Below are positions 25,115 to 29,617 of a stretch of DNA of 64,000 bases, piece after piece (positions within the stretch are counted from its first letter, which is position 1; each line of letters begins with the position of its first letter). Position numbers and translations under genes: made by a program. The notes under the pieces are model-generated. The model made no database searches. It was not told the DNA's origin and saw nothing but the letters and a program-made list of their open reading frames with translations. This stretch comes from Candidatus Thiodiazotropha sp. (ex Myrtea sp. 'scaly one' KF741663) (GTDB taxonomy: Bacteria > Pseudomonadota > Gammaproteobacteria > Chromatiales > Chromatiaceae), in NCBI GenBank assembly GCA_025655555.1, contig JAHXIQ010000002.1, positions 310,001 to 374,000 of the forward strand, read 5' to 3'.

Positions 25115-25179
25115 GGCCTGTTAACACGATTAAGGCAAGATCCTGTGGCCCGTTGTTCTGATTAGCGTTAACAGGCCTT
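25112..25179. repeat. GGCCTGTTAAC palindromic element, copy 1
   Basis: TAGGGCCTGTTAACAC at 25112 and GCGTTAACAGGCC at 25165-25177 form an 11-bp perfect inverted repeat (GGCCTGTTAAC) around about 40 bases. The first TAG is the stop codon of the dehydrogenase. Closely related copies lie at 25725 and 32275. Confidence 0.75.
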
Positions 25180-25184
25180 CGTTT

Positions 25185-25265
25185 TTAACTGACCATCATC
25201 GCTACAACAATACCGAGAACCAGGATGCCGATGGCGCCGATAATTGCGTTTTCACTACCGTACAT
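25185..25265 (-). CDS. 26-residue membrane peptide, first of a matching pair
   Basis: This small frame begins at the ATG at 25265, 5 bases after a near-perfect ribosome site (AGGAGGTGA). It encodes MYGSENA followed by IIGAIGILVLGIVVAMMVS, a single membrane helix, and ends in TAA. A second peptide at 27247-27327 has the same length and the same pattern (MxGSxxAIxGAxxILVxGIV), which strongly supports both as real genes. I know no family or function for it. It could modulate a membrane enzyme, possibly one of the proteins between the two copies. Confidence 0.72.
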   Translation of the reverse strand: MYGSENAIIGAIGILVLGIVVAMMVS

Positions 25266-25413
25266 GAGTCACCTCCTACGTCGATGAGTTGTCACAGTAC
25301 TTTGTGCCGTATGGCTGATACTGCTGTCCTATTTGACAGAGAGTTGGAGCAAAGGGTTTCACTGTTTGCCACAGTAAAGGTGTGCCTAAGCGGCTTCCCA
25401 GAGAGGATTTCAT

Positions 25414-25728
25414 ATGAAACTGAATGATCCATTCGGCCGTTTGGAAAGCCGCCACCAGGCGGGTTATGAGACGATGCGAGATGCCCTTCGTCGTGGCGGT
25501 ATCGATTCTCCTCAGGCGGCTCAGGAGACCATCAGGCAGGCCTGGAAAAGAGGTTTTACCGTCATGGGTGTAGGGATGTTGTTGCTACTTCTGCTGATGG
25601 CCGGAATCCCAAGTGCAGCCCCGCTGGTCCTTGGTCTGGCTCTCTTCATGGTGGTCTGGGTGGTTAGCTCGACGATCAATGGTCAGCGCTACATCAAACG
25701 CTATATCGAAGAAGAGTTAAAACACTAG
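25414..25728 (+). CDS. Small membrane protein of unknown function, 104 aa
   Basis: The first 45 residues are a charged, probably helical, cytoplasmic segment (KLNDPFGRLESRHQAGYETM). Two membrane helices follow (VMGVGMLLLLLLMAGI and PLVLGLALFMVVWVVSSTI), and the protein ends with a charged tail (RYIKRYIEEELKH). An AGAGAGG site precedes the ATG. I do not recognise the family. It faces the desaturase gene, and the two are separated only by a strong palindrome. Its TAG stop lies inside that palindrome. Confidence 0.72.
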   Translation: MKLNDPFGRLESRHQAGYETMRDALRRGGIDSPQAAQETIRQAWKRGFTVMGVGMLLLLLLMAGIPSAAPLVLGLALFMVVWVVSSTINGQRYIKRYIEEELKH

Positions 25729-25783
25729 GGCCTGTTAACACTAATCCAATGCACCCTGCTGGATCAGTGTTAACAGGCCCTAG
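25725..25783. repeat. GGCCTGTTAAC palindromic element, copy 2
   Basis: CTAGGGCCTGTTAACACT pairs with AGTGTTAACAGGCCCTAG; the stem continues inward (AATCCA with TGGATC) with one mismatch around a loop of about 11 bases. The stop codon of the 104-aa gene is inside it, and the desaturase stop is 18 bases away. It could act as a bidirectional terminator or mRNA stabiliser, but no strong T-run follows on either strand. Confidence 0.8.
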
Positions 25784-25800
25784 CTTACCGATCGAGTGGG

Positions 25801-26991
25801 CTAGCTGTAGTGATGGGACTTCAGTTCATATCGACGCATCAACTGAGCAAACTCCGCCAAGGCCTGGATGCCACTGCTCTCCGCCTGGACACACCAGTTT
25901 TTGAGTGATTCGAGCCGGGCCTCATGGCTCATCGCCTGCTGCTCCCAAACAGCCTGTAATTGAAGCCTGAGCTGATAAACCGTTTTTAGCGTCGAGCTGC
26001 TTTCCAGGGCCTCGACCAAGCGTTGTCTGTCACGCTCGCTCAGTAGTGCCACGTCCCGTCTTGCCAGACGGCGTGCCCGGCGATAGAGACGTCGCCAGGA
26101 TCTCTGTGCAGCAGCATTGATTTCAGCCCGAAAGACTGGGCGCAGAACTTTGCTGCTGTAGTCACTGAGTAACTGCAACCGATTGACGGTCAGTGATTTC
26201 ACCGCGTCCAGGTCCAGTTGTGGCCTGGGTGGAATCAGCTTGGGTACTGGTGCCACCTTTTGCACCTGCGCCAGGCCCAGTAGAGAGAAGAGCCGGATAT
26301 AGAGCCAGCCGAGGTCGAACTCCCACCAGCGGATCGAGAACTTGGCGGAACTGGCATAGGCGTGGTGGTTATTGTGCAGTTCCTCACCGCCGATCAACAG
26401 CCCCCAGGGCACAATATTGGTGGAGGCGTTGGGAATCTCAAAATTACGATAACCCCAGTAGTGACCGATACCGTTAATGACACCAGCGGCCCAAAAAGGT
26501 ATCCAGATCATCTGTATGGCCCAGATGGCCACACCCGCCGGTCCGAAGAGGATCAGCAGCGCCACAAGGAGAAAGCTGACACCCAGTACATGATGGGGAG
26601 TGTAAATCCGATGTTCCAGCCAGTCATCCGGGGTGCCTTTACCATAGCGCTCCAGTGTCTCCTGATTCGCCGCCTCATGCTGATAAAGTTCTGCCCCCCG
26701 CCAGAGCACCTCATTGATTCCACGTGTCTGTGGGCTGTGGGGGTCATCAGCGGTTTCACATTTTGCATGGTGCTTTCGGTGAATGGCGACCCATTCACGG
26801 GTCACCATACCGGTGGTGAGCCACAGCCAGAAACGGAAAAAATGGCTCAATATCGGATGGAGTTCAAGCGCACGGTGGGCCTGATGCCGATGGAGAAAAA
26901 CGGTGACAGAAACGATGGTGATGTGAGTGAGGATCAGGGTAAGAACGAGATAACCCCAGAGAGACAGATCGAGCAGGCCGGTGAGTAACAT
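25801..26991 (-). CDS. Delta-9-type acyl-CoA/acyl-lipid fatty acid desaturase
   Basis: This membrane di-iron enzyme inserts a double bond into acyl chains and alters membrane fluidity. All three histidine boxes are present: HRHQAH (34-39), HRKHH (71-75) and HNNHH (206-210). Several membrane helices lie between them. About 130 residues after the core (from about 270) are charged and helical, with many arginines (RRLYRRARRLARR), longer than the usual bacterial form. It is flanked on both sides by the 26-aa membrane peptides. Confidence 0.92.
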   Translation of the reverse strand: MLLTGLLDLSLWGYLVLTLILTHITIVSVTVFLHRHQAHRALELHPILSHFFRFWLWLTTGMVTREWVAIHRKHHAKCETADDPHSPQTRGINEVLWRGAELYQHEAANQETLERYGKGTPDDWLEHRIYTPHHVLGVSFLLVALLILFGPAGVAIWAIQMIWIPFWAAGVINGIGHYWGYRNFEIPNASTNIVPWGLLIGGEELHNNHHAYASSAKFSIRWWEFDLGWLYIRLFSLLGLAQVQKVAPVPKLIPPRPQLDLDAVKSLTVNRLQLLSDYSSKVLRPVFRAEINAAAQRSWRRLYRRARRLARRDVALLSERDRQRLVEALESSSTLKTVYQLRLQLQAVWEQQAMSHEARLESLKNWCVQAESSGIQALAEFAQLMRRYELKSHHYS

Positions 26992-27246
26992 GGATTACCT
27001 TTTTAAAAGAAGGTCGTTTCCATAGAGAATCGACCGCCTGAGTGCCTCCAAACAGCCTACGATCTTGGAGAGGAATATTTGATATAGCTGCTTGAAGTGT
27101 AGTGTATTGCAGTGCACTTAGACACAGAAGCGGTTAGGGAGGTGGGAAATGGGGAGGATTAAGAGGTCGAGGGAGCAGGCCTACGAGAGTTTCTGAGAGG
27201 GCAGTATTTGTTCATGGGGCGGGAGAAATCCCCCGCCCCTGACGGG

Positions 27247-27327
27247 TTAGCCGAGCAATACCGAGATCACGATGCCCACAACCAGGATGGCCAGTGCACC
27301 GACAATTGCCTTATCACTTCCTAACAT
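27247..27327 (-). CDS. 26-residue membrane peptide, second of a matching pair
   Basis: The ATG at 27327 follows GGAGGA by 8 bases and encodes MLGSDKA followed by IVGALAILVVGIVISVLLG, then TAA. The frame is open further upstream, but that part shows no coding pattern and the ribosome site marks this start. It matches the peptide at 25185-25265 in length, N-terminal motif and helix pattern. Both lie on the same strand as the desaturase, one on each side. The function is unknown. Confidence 0.72.
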   Translation of the reverse strand: MLGSDKAIVGALAILVVGIVISVLLG

Positions 27328-27760
27328 GGTGGAGTCCTCCAAATGACTTTTACCAACAAGACATTGCGCTGAATCGGGAGCCAACCCGTGGCTGACGACC
27401 GGAAAGACAGCAATAACAATGCGGGGAGTAGGGTAATTAATTTGCTGGCGGGATGAACTGATAATTATCAATAAATTCTTAGCTAGGACAAAAATAGCCT
27501 AATCGAAGATGCAGGATGTGAAATCACACATAAAAATCCTTCGCTGAAAGACGGCCTTTTTGGCGGCTTCGTTTTCCAAGCAGTGTGTCTGATTCGGTCA
27601 TACGCCAGTACGATTGATGGTGAAAATGCGGGGAGCAGATCAAGATCTTTCAAAAGATTCAGATGCAATATCTGCCCTTCCGATACCGATTCGTGATAAA
27701 ACAGGGGCCGTCACATGTTCAACAGGGAACACTAGATTCCCGTTCAGCTCGGGGTGAATC
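27328..27760. other. Gap with no convincing protein gene
   Basis: No gene-like frame is seen in this 433-bp stretch. It should hold the promoter of the 26-aa peptide (leftward) and of the 225-aa gene (rightward). TGATAATTATCA at 27459-27470 is a perfect 12-bp palindrome resembling a short Fur-type element (GATAAT/ATTATC), but a single copy is weak evidence. Confidence 0.4.
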
Positions 27761-28438
27761 ATGCAACTGCTGTTTAGCGAACTGCCCGGCCGGCACGAAC
27801 GCCATCTGCTGCGAAAACACAATAATCCACTCTTTCCCGAGGATCAGCGTAGCCTCACTCAGGGAGAATTGACGGAAGCGCAACGGCTCGATCATGAGGA
27901 GCTCGAGGCCTACATTGGCGACCTACGCAAACTGGTGGGTGAAGCCGTAGCCCTGGGTCCACACGAGCAGAGTGATGTCATCCTTGAATTGAAGGAGCGC
28001 CTCGACAAGGCCTATGAAAGCGCCAGTCGATTAGCGGATGACCAGAGTCCCAACAAGGAGGCCATCAAAAAATTGGTTGCCGTCATTATGCGCGCCGTTT
28101 GGCAGGGGGCTGGCAATGACACCCTCGCCCAGCAGGAGCTGGAGCAGGAAGAGGAGGCGCGTAAGACCCATTTTGAACTACTGGAAACAGCGCTGGTGGC
28201 GGACCTTCTCGATCCTGAATCGCTTATCAGTGAGCATGAACTGCTGCCGGTACTTCTCAGTGCTGAGCGGGAGGACTTCGAAGCCGCAGTCACCCTTTTT
28301 GACCCCAACCAAATCCAGGTGCTGTGCGAACTGGGAGATGAGTTTTTTCAGGGCAGGGAAGATGATGATGTTGTGATGGGAGCCAGACAACGTCTACAGG
28401 AAATGAATGCTTTGGTTGATGAGCTGAACGTCAGTTAG
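27761..28438 (+). CDS. Conserved hypothetical protein, 225 aa
   Basis: I do not recognise this soluble, acidic, mostly helical protein. Its middle (residues about 65-150) is rich in Glu, Gln, Lys and Ala, with probable coiled-coil segments (ELKERLDKAYESASRLADD and LAQQELEQEEEARKTHFELL). No cysteines, signal peptide or membrane segments are seen. It begins at an ATG after a GGGGTGAATC site, and codon use matches neighbouring genes. The next gene is the CcoG-like protein, about 190 bases on, possibly after a weak terminator. Confidence 0.66.
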   Translation: MQLLFSELPGRHERHLLRKHNNPLFPEDQRSLTQGELTEAQRLDHEELEAYIGDLRKLVGEAVALGPHEQSDVILELKERLDKAYESASRLADDQSPNKEAIKKLVAVIMRAVWQGAGNDTLAQQELEQEEEARKTHFELLETALVADLLDPESLISEHELLPVLLSAEREDFEAAVTLFDPNQIQVLCELGDEFFQGREDDDVVMGARQRLQEMNALVDELNVS

Positions 28439-28627
28439 GCTCTGTCAATCGATTTCAATATCATCTTGCTGCCTTGTCAGCACGAAAAAACCATCAAATT
28501 CTCAGCGGTTTTTTTTGACATATGTCATGCCCAAACTTTCAGTACGTCTGTGTGATAGACGCCTCAGGAAGCTCTTGGCCCTAAGATGTGGCTTTCCACC
28601 AACTGCGGAGCAGCCGCAAAGGCAAGC

Positions 28628-29617
28628 ATGACGACAAACAGCATACAGAAACAGCGACTGGCCTGGCGAAGCGCATTTTTTCTGCTTTTCATACTGGCTC
28701 CGCCTCTGGACATACTGCGTTTCGATCTCACTCAGAATCACCTCATCCTGTTTGGTTTTCCCTGGACACTCGGTATGTCTGCATTCCAGGAAGGCACCAT
28801 TGGGGCGATGGAGATGGGGTTGCAGATGCTGTTTCGACTGTTTCTACCGCTTGCTTTGTTACTGACTCTGGGGGTCTACATCGCTTGGAAATGGGGGCGT
28901 CTCTACTGTGGATGGTTGTGCCCACACTTCTCTGTGGTAGAGATGATCAATTCGCTTATGCGTCGGGCCCATGGCAAGTTGTCGATCTGGGAGAAAAATC
29001 CGCTGCCTGACGTACAGCGTGACGGTACTCAGATTCAACCCAACAAGCGCTGGTGGTTTGTCACTATTGTGGCGGTGCTGTTTTTTTCTTTCCTTTGGGC
29101 GGTTGCTCTGCTCACCTATCTGCTGCCGCCAAAGGAGATATACAGCAACCTGATCACAGCCAGCCTGACAAGAAACCAATTCATTTTTATCGGTGTGGGG
29201 ACCTTACTGCTGACGATTGAGTTTACCTTTGCACGACATCTTTTCTGTCGTTTTGGCTGTGCACTGGGCCTCTTTCAGAGTCTGATCTGGATGGGCAACA
29301 AGAAAGCGATGGTGGTCGCCTATGATCGCAAACGGGCAAAGGTCTGCGTGGATTGTGACGCCTCCTGTGAGCATGCCTGTCCCATGCGCCTGAAACCGCG
29401 CAGTATTAAGCGTCGAATGTTTACCTGTACGCAATGCATGCAATGTATTGCGGCTTGTGATGCCACCCAGCAGGCAGCATCCGGCAGCGGTTTGTTGAAG
29501 ATGCTGGAGGATCAGTGTGCCTTGGACGTTTCCACACGCGACTTTGGTTTCAAGCCTGAGGTACCTCAAGCCTGCTTTTCAAAAGAGAATGCGGGTAAGA
29601 GGAAGTGTTGCCATTGA
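28628..29617 (+). CDS. CcoG/NapH-like polyferredoxin membrane protein
   Basis: The 329-residue protein has four or five membrane helices and conserved cysteine motifs: YCGWLCPH near residue 95, then CVDCDASCEHACPM and CTQCMQCIAACD, which make two [4Fe-4S] sites. CcoG (RdxA/FixG) proteins reduce copper for cbb3 oxidase assembly, and NapH and NosR relatives move electrons from quinol. The Ig-like C-terminal domain of CcoG is missing here, and no cco, nap or nos genes are adjacent, so the partner is unknown. The ATG at 28628 is preferred over one at 28586 because the latter lacks a ribosome site. Confidence 0.82.
   Translation: MTTNSIQKQRLAWRSAFFLLFILAPPLDILRFDLTQNHLILFGFPWTLGMSAFQEGTIGAMEMGLQMLFRLFLPLALLLTLGVYIAWKWGRLYCGWLCPHFSVVEMINSLMRRAHGKLSIWEKNPLPDVQRDGTQIQPNKRWWFVTIVAVLFFSFLWAVALLTYLLPPKEIYSNLITASLTRNQFIFIGVGTLLLTIEFTFARHLFCRFGCALGLFQSLIWMGNKKAMVVAYDRKRAKVCVDCDASCEHACPMRLKPRSIKRRMFTCTQCMQCIAACDATQQAASGSGLLKMLEDQCALDVSTRDFGFKPEVPQACFSKENAGKRKCCH

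Follow-up and report, generated by a model that had tools for sequence, protein, structure and literature searches.

A paralogous pair of 26-residue membrane peptides in Candidatus Thiodiazotropha, one of them with a likely FNR-type switch

Two small genes around a desaturase

Two minus-strand genes of 26 codons each, for peptides we call A and B, lie on either side of a fatty acid desaturase gene in a 64,000-nucleotide stretch of Candidatus Thiodiazotropha DNA (the window). Are they genuine genes and, if so, is the desaturase the key to what they do? A preliminary description of the window had reported the two frames, each closed by TAA, with strong ribosome-binding sites and a common pattern, MxGSxxAIxGAxxILVxGIV: all of these were found again in the sequence, and the pattern fits both peptides. 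The statement that they flank the desaturase and a 104-aa membrane protein likewise stands, as both are located between A and B, the 104-aa ORF on the plus strand. The genes of the locus are:

25185..25265 (25265..25185 as read), minus strand: gene for peptide A, 26 codons plus TAA, MYGSENAIIGAIGILVLGIVVAMMVS
25269..25277, minus strand: ribosome-binding site of A, AGGAGGTGA, 5' of the A start
25414..25728, plus strand: gene for a 104-aa membrane protein, restricted to the three loci that also have the desaturase
25801..26991, minus strand: DesA-family fatty acid desaturase with an ISL3-like tail (NF049918, 606 bits against a cut-off of 400)
27247..27327 (27327..27247 as read), minus strand: gene for peptide B, 26 codons plus TAA, MLGSDKAIVGALAILVVGIVISVLLG
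27335..27340, minus strand: ribosome-binding site of B, GGAGGA, 5' of the B ATG
27761..28438, plus strand: 225-aa protein with no family assigned, divergent from B

The call of the ORF finder for B runs further upstream, giving 74 aa; protein-level conservation of B in its relatives is confined to the 26 codons from the ATG onward.

Sequence features and selection

In a single comparison the two peptides are identical at 13 of 25 positions and similar at 22 (E 1e-8), and their DNA differs at 25 of 78 bases. Composition-preserving shuffling, repeated 200,000 times, never attained the score of the whole peptide and attained that of the membrane part alone three times. As shuffles almost never match these scores, the likeness is not merely one of hydrophobic composition. 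Across the family, the residues after the first six form a single hydrophobic stretch of membrane length, with a best 19-residue mean hydropathy of 2.89 and 3.05 for the two peptides, and the small residues A7, G10, A11, G18, S/A22 and G/S26 are retained in almost all variants. These small residues favor one face of the helix (R 0.67), a weak statistic given that 2.3% of column sets do equally well.

Pairwise differences at codon positions 1, 2 and 3 number 709, 100 and 1166 among 16 distinct B sequences and 308, 54 and 441 among nine distinct A sequences, and the mean pN/pS is 0.28 for B and 0.45 for A, all of these from pairs that are non-independent. The pN/pS sets leave out the start codon, enter identical coding sequences once, include G192 (with a CTG start) and exclude G055 and G030 (from other genera), G195 (damaged) and G198. 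The differences follow codon position, and the 26-codon frame is kept throughout the genus, so that neither of the two refuting outcomes named in the preliminary description occurred. Purifying selection on the proteins of both A and B is evident at this level, as the preliminary description had supposed, and that they are real genes is close to certain on sequence grounds. The opposite reading, of chance ORFs or conserved non-coding DNA, can draw on the abundance of short ORFs (146 of at least 20 aa in 9 kb). It is refuted by the codon-position pattern, short of an artefact of base composition, and has the exact length, the ribosome sites and the promoter-like region found throughout the genus against it as well; we give it next to no weight.

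The earlier remark that the peptides belong to no described family held up against the libraries. In Pfam they match no family at its cut-off, the cytochrome bd small subunits CydX and CydY included; NCBIfam has no match for A and B of the window, and a PDB search with the profile of the peptides gave no chain at E values up to 10. Candidates set aside are the inovirus coat protein B (PF05356) for A (E 0.032, 14.7 bits against a cut-off of 23.5, matched by one of ten family members) and library matches to MS_channel_1st_1 and phrog_32077, which are under cut-offs or isolated and weak. The best reading is that A and B are paralogues in a new family of predicted single-helix membrane micropeptides, absent from the libraries searched.

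Phyletic distribution

The relatives of the locus belong to Candidatus Thiodiazotropha, sulfur-oxidizing gill symbionts of clams. B is present in 20 of the 22 genus genomes seen (intact in 18) and A in 10 of the 22, at a single locus. Two B copies are damaged, that of G195 and that of G192, which has lost both the ATG and the FNR-type box described below and begins with CTG; at the locus of G136 B is absent. B is hence dispensable in some species.

Beyond the genus, a single relative is present in each of two further genera in the family (G055 and G030); these relatives have 26 and 27 codons, a ribosome site and then a G+C hairpin. The search of the order matched 68 of 210 genomes at E <= 1, with full-length small frames only in the 20 genus genomes, G055 and G030, and with a few weak partial matches in short frames at E 0.37 or worse; a repeat with a wider profile (35 of 204 genomes at E <= 0.2) had the same outcome for full-length small frames. 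Samples of the class (18 of 370 genomes at E <= 0.2) and of the phylum (6 of 397 at E <= 0.01) were restricted to genomes at least 90% complete. Among the matches listed from these two, all those outside the genus are partial and inside frames of at least 69 aa, and we take them to be non-members; the first-look filter of the genome searches may overlook distant ones. A phage or plasmid origin was considered and rejected: seven pattern matches in viral contigs gave none confirmed by the profile, and a search of plasmid and phage records with B found nothing.

Gene neighborhoods

Wherever B occurs in the genus (20 loci) the 225-aa gene adjoins it; G136 and G200 have this gene too. The desaturase occurs at three of the 20 (the window, G184 and G199), between A and B; its place is taken at the remaining 17 by a convergently oriented bacteriohemerythrin gene. 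An FNR-type box accompanies each of these 17 hemerythrin genes, and none is present in the 300 nt upstream of the desaturase in the window and G184.

The preliminary description had offered, as a guess, that the peptides are a subunit or regulator of the desaturase, and proposed looking for copies beside desaturases elsewhere. The arrangement at three loci is what speaks for this; the absence of the desaturase from the other 17 largely refutes it, its upstream region in the window and G184 bears no FNR-type box, and a hairpin separates it from B. We regard such a role as highly unlikely. As B has a likely FNR-type switch and usually adjoins a hemerythrin gene, the desaturase is probably a bystander, as the 104-aa protein would be, and the case illustrates how the neighbor seen in one genome can mislead.

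Could B then be a membrane dock for the hemerythrin, a soluble oxygen-binding protein that would pass oxygen to an oxidase? Besides the recurrent adjacency and the shared box, the G136 locus lacks both genes, and a published survey has a hemerythrin, perhaps this one, as one of 36 named genes that rank within the top 100 symbiont transcripts of all three clam hosts (PMC13137333). Against this, the locus is without the hemerythrin in three genomes whose A and B are both intact, and the hemerythrin is retained in G195 and G192 despite their damaged B. The surroundings of the G055 and G030 relatives (20 kb and 11 kb) have no match for any neighbor query, desaturase and hemerythrin included. Moreover, the two long matches to the locus hemerythrin in the window's own genome (8 of 12 hemerythrin loci compared) are merely 28% and 30% identical to it, and neighbors need not interact. 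We consider the dock improbable.

The FNR-type promoter-like region of B

Upstream and downstream of B are three further conserved elements:

27459..27471, minus strand: FNR-type dyad TTGATAATTATCA, upstream of B, present at 18 of 18 intact B genes and at neither of the two damaged ones
27430..27435, minus strand: -10-like hexamer TACCCT, 23 nt past the dyad
27216..27239, minus strand: G+C hairpin resembling a terminator, immediately past B and conserved across the genus

The FNR (Anr) dyad has the consensus TTGAT-N4-ATCAA, and in class II FNR promoters it is centered about 41.5 bp before the transcription start, with the -10 hexamer at a matching distance. The site at B has the form TTGAY-N4-RTCA: its half-sites are TTGAT..ATCA in 11 genes, TTGAC..GTCA in four and mixed in three (G184, G188 and G203), mostly agreeing with each other within a flanking sequence rich in indels. 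The 23-nt spacer between dyad and hexamer is constant in all 18 intact genes, the hexamer being TACCCT in 16, TACCTT in one and TGCTCT in one. From spacer and hexamer, the region is predicted to fit the class II spacing. Of 20,000 random 350-nt draws from the window, 389 contain such a box. Lone boxes are frequent, the window having eight where 3.1 are expected. FNR-type control of B is, on the whole, likely. No box lies within 170 nt upstream of A (0 of 10) or within 350 nt upstream of the G055 and G030 relatives; low-oxygen control would thus be a trait of B and not of the family.

In the hairpin past the stop the core stem GGCGG/CCGCC is paired in 14 or 15 of 15 sequences, and the tip pairs vary, some compensated and some mismatched. 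With a promoter-like region of its own and this conserved hairpin, B has in sequence the look of a free-standing transcription unit.

A short hydrophobic peptide in two copies, on a transcript of this look, would also suit a type I toxin with its antitoxin, or a regulatory RNA of dual function with a secondary peptide; the conserved leader, in which the ribosome site may form a hairpin, is in keeping with either. The leader hairpin, which we do not claim, is broken in G184 and has little covariation. FNR-type control, purifying selection on the protein, the lack of any Rfam match in the window, of a confirmed relative in viral contigs and of a plasmid or phage match for B argue against both forms of this alternative, which we rate as quite improbable.

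Regulator and oxidases of the window's genome

In this genome a gene for a putative Crp/Fnr-type regulator, named by similarity and with an N-terminal Cys cluster, precedes the single ccoN match by about 0.5 kb. The C-terminal 107 aa of the regulator, the only part scanned, match the Fnr model best, at 84 bits against a cut-off of 228 set for the full length. As the genome has 15 Crp/Fnr-type HTH matches (12 of them above cut-off), a Dnr-like paralogue could own the site at B. The ccoN gene has an FNR-type site upstream, TTGATCTATGTCA; read by eye, the spacer between this site and the best -10-like hexamer of ccoN, TATAAA, is 16 nt instead of the 23 nt at B. The link seen between B and the cbb3 oxidase is this type of FNR box, which they share. 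For cydA (PF01654) the genome has no match; elsewhere the model is matched partially in G007, G063 and G136 only, and at full length in G055 and G030.

Proposed function

Our tentative preference is for A and B as a new paralogous family in which B would serve at low oxygen as an accessory to a complex for respiration or oxygen handling, a reading modeled on the orphan low-oxygen protein YnhF, which was found to be CydY of the bd oxidase. At low oxygen, Fnr would likely switch on B along with the adjoining hemerythrin gene and the cbb3 oxidase (ccoN). The helix of B would insert in the inner membrane, its small-residue face packing on partner helices; the partner would most likely be a low-oxygen respiratory complex such as the cbb3 oxidase, which B may stabilize or tune. 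A would be a paralogue under other control.

The same small-residue face would also suit self-packing. B might oligomerize at low oxygen, possibly in mixed oligomers with A, and alter membrane fluidity or the proton-motive force with no fixed partner, in the manner of YohP; the strong hydrophobicity and a length and membrane nature close to those of this 27-aa E. coli protein (PMC12719787) are in keeping with this. The strict 26-residue length in the genus and the near-invariant A7, G10, A11 and G18 suggest, on the other hand, a specific partner surface, and we see self-association as a possible, if rather doubtful, alternative.

A wider form of the accessory reading, which we consider unlikely, would make A and B new subunits of the low-oxygen respiratory machinery in sulfur-oxidizing symbionts of animals: a module under Fnr control, made up of a hemerythrin as soluble oxygen carrier and a 26-residue membrane helix, would supply the terminal oxidase or tune it when oxygen is short in the gill, and in one clade the oxygen-using desaturase would have replaced the carrier.

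The family adds to the physiology of chemosynthetic symbionts a genus-wide micropeptide with a testable Fnr/low-oxygen switch and a recurring hemerythrin neighbor.

Comparison with known small membrane proteins

CcoM belongs to the cbb3 oxidase, the type that here bears an FNR-type box, and is a small subunit of it, as B may be. At 36 aa in Pseudomonas stutzeri (PMC10433244) it is longer than A and B, with which it was compared in sequence only through the family libraries and the PDB. The surroundings of the peptides showed no cco gene. YohP, likened to them by description, is made under stress and is linked to nutrient starvation and stationary phase (PMC12719787). The inovirus coat protein B (PF05356) resembles A as a short helix with a weak match only. 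CydX is likewise small with a single hydrophobic helix, but differs by its invariant W6 and by acidic residues conserved beside the helix (PMC6005532); the A and B peptides seen have neither a W nor a tail.

Closest to the accessory reading is YnhF of E. coli, an orphan low-oxygen single-helix protein since recognized as CydY, the fourth subunit of cytochrome bd-I (PMC6853902). It differs in that the A/B profile matches no PDB chain, that the window's genome has no cydA match, and that A and B form a gene pair at a locus holding a hemerythrin in most of the genus. The two cases have in common a small protein with one predicted helix, low-oxygen expression (in B, predicted) and a gene distant from the oxidase operon (PMC6853902). 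If B is an oxidase accessory, it would be another orphan low-oxygen peptide of a respiratory complex of the YnhF/CydY kind, and would give grounds to seek overlooked subunits in other microaerophiles.

Peptides A and B

Two paralogous single-helix micropeptide genes are found in the window as first described.

25265-25185, minus strand: peptide A (MYGSENAIIGAIGILVLGIVVAMMVS), 26 codons plus TAA, strong ribosome site
27327-27247, minus strand: peptide B (MLGSDKAIVGALAILVVGIVISVLLG), 26 codons plus TAA, strong ribosome site

The peptides are identical at 13 of 25 aligned residues, and their genes show 25 differences over 78 bases; the whole-peptide score was reached by none of 200,000 shuffles. 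The fatty-acid desaturase and the 104-aa membrane ORF that they were said to flank are both there, with the correction that the latter lies on the plus strand. The claim of peptide-level selection was borne out by codon position: pairwise differences at positions 1/2/3 are 709/100/1166 for 16 distinct B sequences (mean pN/pS 0.28; pN<pS in 118 of 120 non-independent pairs) and 308/54/441 for nine distinct A sequences (mean 0.45; 35 of 36 pairs, likewise non-independent). Across 24 distinct variants, columns 7, 10, 11, 18, 22 and 26 are G, A or S in at least 95%. Five of these six fall on one side of the helix, but as 2.3% of column sets do equally well this small-residue face is only suggestive. 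By sequence, A and B are shown to be protein-coding genes under selection with membrane-helix-like products.

Distribution of the family

When 210 genomes of the order were searched with a peptide profile, 20 of the 22 listed genomes of the genus proved to have full-length copies; G055 and G030, from other genera of the Chromatiaceae, have a single copy apiece. Orthologues keep the reading frame: all intact copies within the genus are 26 codons long, that of G055 is 26 and that of G030 is 27. Samples of 370 class and 397 phylum genomes yielded no small-frame relatives outside the genus, nor did viral contigs (peptide profile) or plasmid and phage records (B). Most of the 12 named loci matched by the profile are labeled either Candidatus Thiodiazotropha or, as symbionts of lucinid clams, gamma proteobacterium, and one is assigned only to a Chromatiales bacterium; the nearest, L064 (isolate 'ex Monitilora ramsayi'), has peptides 92% and 100% identical and a desaturase 97% identical. 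On these grounds the window is assigned to a clam gill symbiont of Thiodiazotropha type.

Two genus genomes gave no peptide. In G200 the contig begins 377 bases upstream of a 225-aa marker gene; in the window the distance from that gene to the start of B is 434 bases, and the B site of G200 was therefore probably cut off. G136 has no peptide although the locus is present. B occurs in all 20 peptide-bearing genus genomes and is intact in 18: G192 has CTG where ATG is expected, and in G195 (locus L136) the gene's 5' end has given way to sequence that terminates in a repeat also seen in the window. A occurs in 10 of the 20, at the hydroxyisobutyrate-dehydrogenase side.

25115-25177 and 25729-25779: palindromic repeat with GGCCTGTTAAC ends (CTAGGGCCTGTTAACAC...GTGTTAACAGGCCCTAG)

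With one mismatch allowed, the window has six matches to this repeat against 0.7 expected. It has the look of a miniature mobile element, and an end of this kind adjoins the truncated B of G195.

Locus layout

When the window's neighbor genes were blasted against all peptide loci, a single syntenic place emerged in the genus: hemE, hydroxyisobutyrate dehydrogenase, A where present, an insert, B and the 225-aa gene. The G055 and G030 loci matched none of these neighbors. The suggested desaturase role does not fit this layout: the insert consists of the desaturase and the 104-aa protein in three of 20 genomes (window, G184, G199). In the other 17 a bacteriohemerythrin of 144-145 aa, convergent with B, forms part of it, and six of these 17 also have a histidine kinase there. 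The desaturase is probably a bystander. The one hemerythrin scanned, from G007, exceeds the TIGR02481 hemerythrin-domain cut-off (61.2 vs 51.75 bits) and falls below those of the remaining hemerythrin models listed.

The desaturase (25801-26991) has an ISL3-transposase-like alpha-bundle tail (NF049919, 98 bits), a fusion already modeled by NCBIfam. The 225-aa protein (27761-28438), which marks the locus in the genus, has no family match; its gene and B are divergently oriented and might have a common control region. The window's genome (G000, 4.0 Mb) has 12 hemerythrin-domain matches.

Probable FNR-type control region of B

27471-27459: FNR-type dyad upstream of B (TTGATAATTATCA)

TTGATAATTATCA fits the FNR/Anr consensus, TTGAT-N4-ATCAA. 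In aligned upstream regions of 16 distinct B genes, all but that of G192 (15 genes) have the dyad with a constant 23-nt spacer to TACCCT, and dyad and spacer persist while indels occur on either side. Over all 20 B loci, dyad and spacer accompany 18 of 18 intact and neither of two damaged genes. Among the intact genes the hexamer is TACCCT in 16, TACCTT in one and TGCTCT in one, and the half-sites are TTGAT..ATCA in 11, TTGAC..GTCA in four and mixed in three. The arrangement of dyad, spacer and hexamer is that of a class II FNR promoter. The joint loss of promoter and start suggests that the promoter serves to make the B protein, though the cases are just two and in G195 a single insertion accounts for both losses.

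Single boxes carry little weight: 389 of 20,000 random 350-nt stretches of the window contain one, and the whole window has eight matches against 3.1 expected, one site being counted on both strands. The claim of FNR-type control therefore rests on the cross-species pattern. No box lies within 170 nt upstream of A (0/10) or within 350 nt upstream of the G055 and G030 relatives; the hemerythrin genes have one 75-79 nt before the start in 17 of 17. B has an FNR-type, promoter-like region ahead of it and a conserved hairpin 3' of its stop.

The B leader (27328-27430) has in many species a GCAAT-GTT-ATTGC-like inverted repeat close to its 5' end and a block CTTTTATGGTCA ahead of the ribosome site; RNA-level control by these elements is possible. 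A NapH/CcoG-like ferredoxin membrane gene (28586-29617) has its own FNR-type box, TTGACATATGTCA, at 28515-28527, and a box with altered letters likewise precedes such a gene in loci L053 and L140. Matches to Crp/Fnr-type HTH domains number 15 in G000, and 12 of them exceed the cut-off.

Proposed function and comparison with known systems

B is likely induced at low oxygen, where it would act as an accessory helix of a membrane complex. The candidate complex in the window's genome is the cbb3 oxidase, since cydA has no match there and the sole ccoN match is preceded by a box of the same type (TTGATCTATGTCA); read by eye, TATAAA comes 16 nt, not 23, downstream of this box, and an Fnr-like gene lies about 0.5 kb before ccoN. 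The main rival is that B tunes the membrane in the manner of YohP (PMC12719787). As a third option B could be a dock for hemerythrin: PMC13137333 places a hemerythrin, not necessarily B's neighbor, among the 36 named genes that rank in all three hosts within the top 100 transcripts of Ca. T. endolucinida, in a table that leaves out hypothetical proteins. In the literature searched, hemerythrin and a small membrane protein came up together in one paper, on Streptomyces and Mycobacterium.

As first supposed, the family appears undescribed within the libraries and literature searchable, since the peptides have no Pfam family over its cut-off, no PDB match and one weak PHROGs match, NCBIfam gives no match for the two window peptides, and the literature search returned no papers on small proteins of Thiodiazotropha. 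Its kind, the low-oxygen single-helix micropeptide, is already known. In E. coli the low-oxygen peptide YnhF, encoded away from its oxidase, turned up in the structure of bd-I and was given the name CydY (PMC6853902); it is the closest precedent for B as a low-oxygen membrane accessory peptide.
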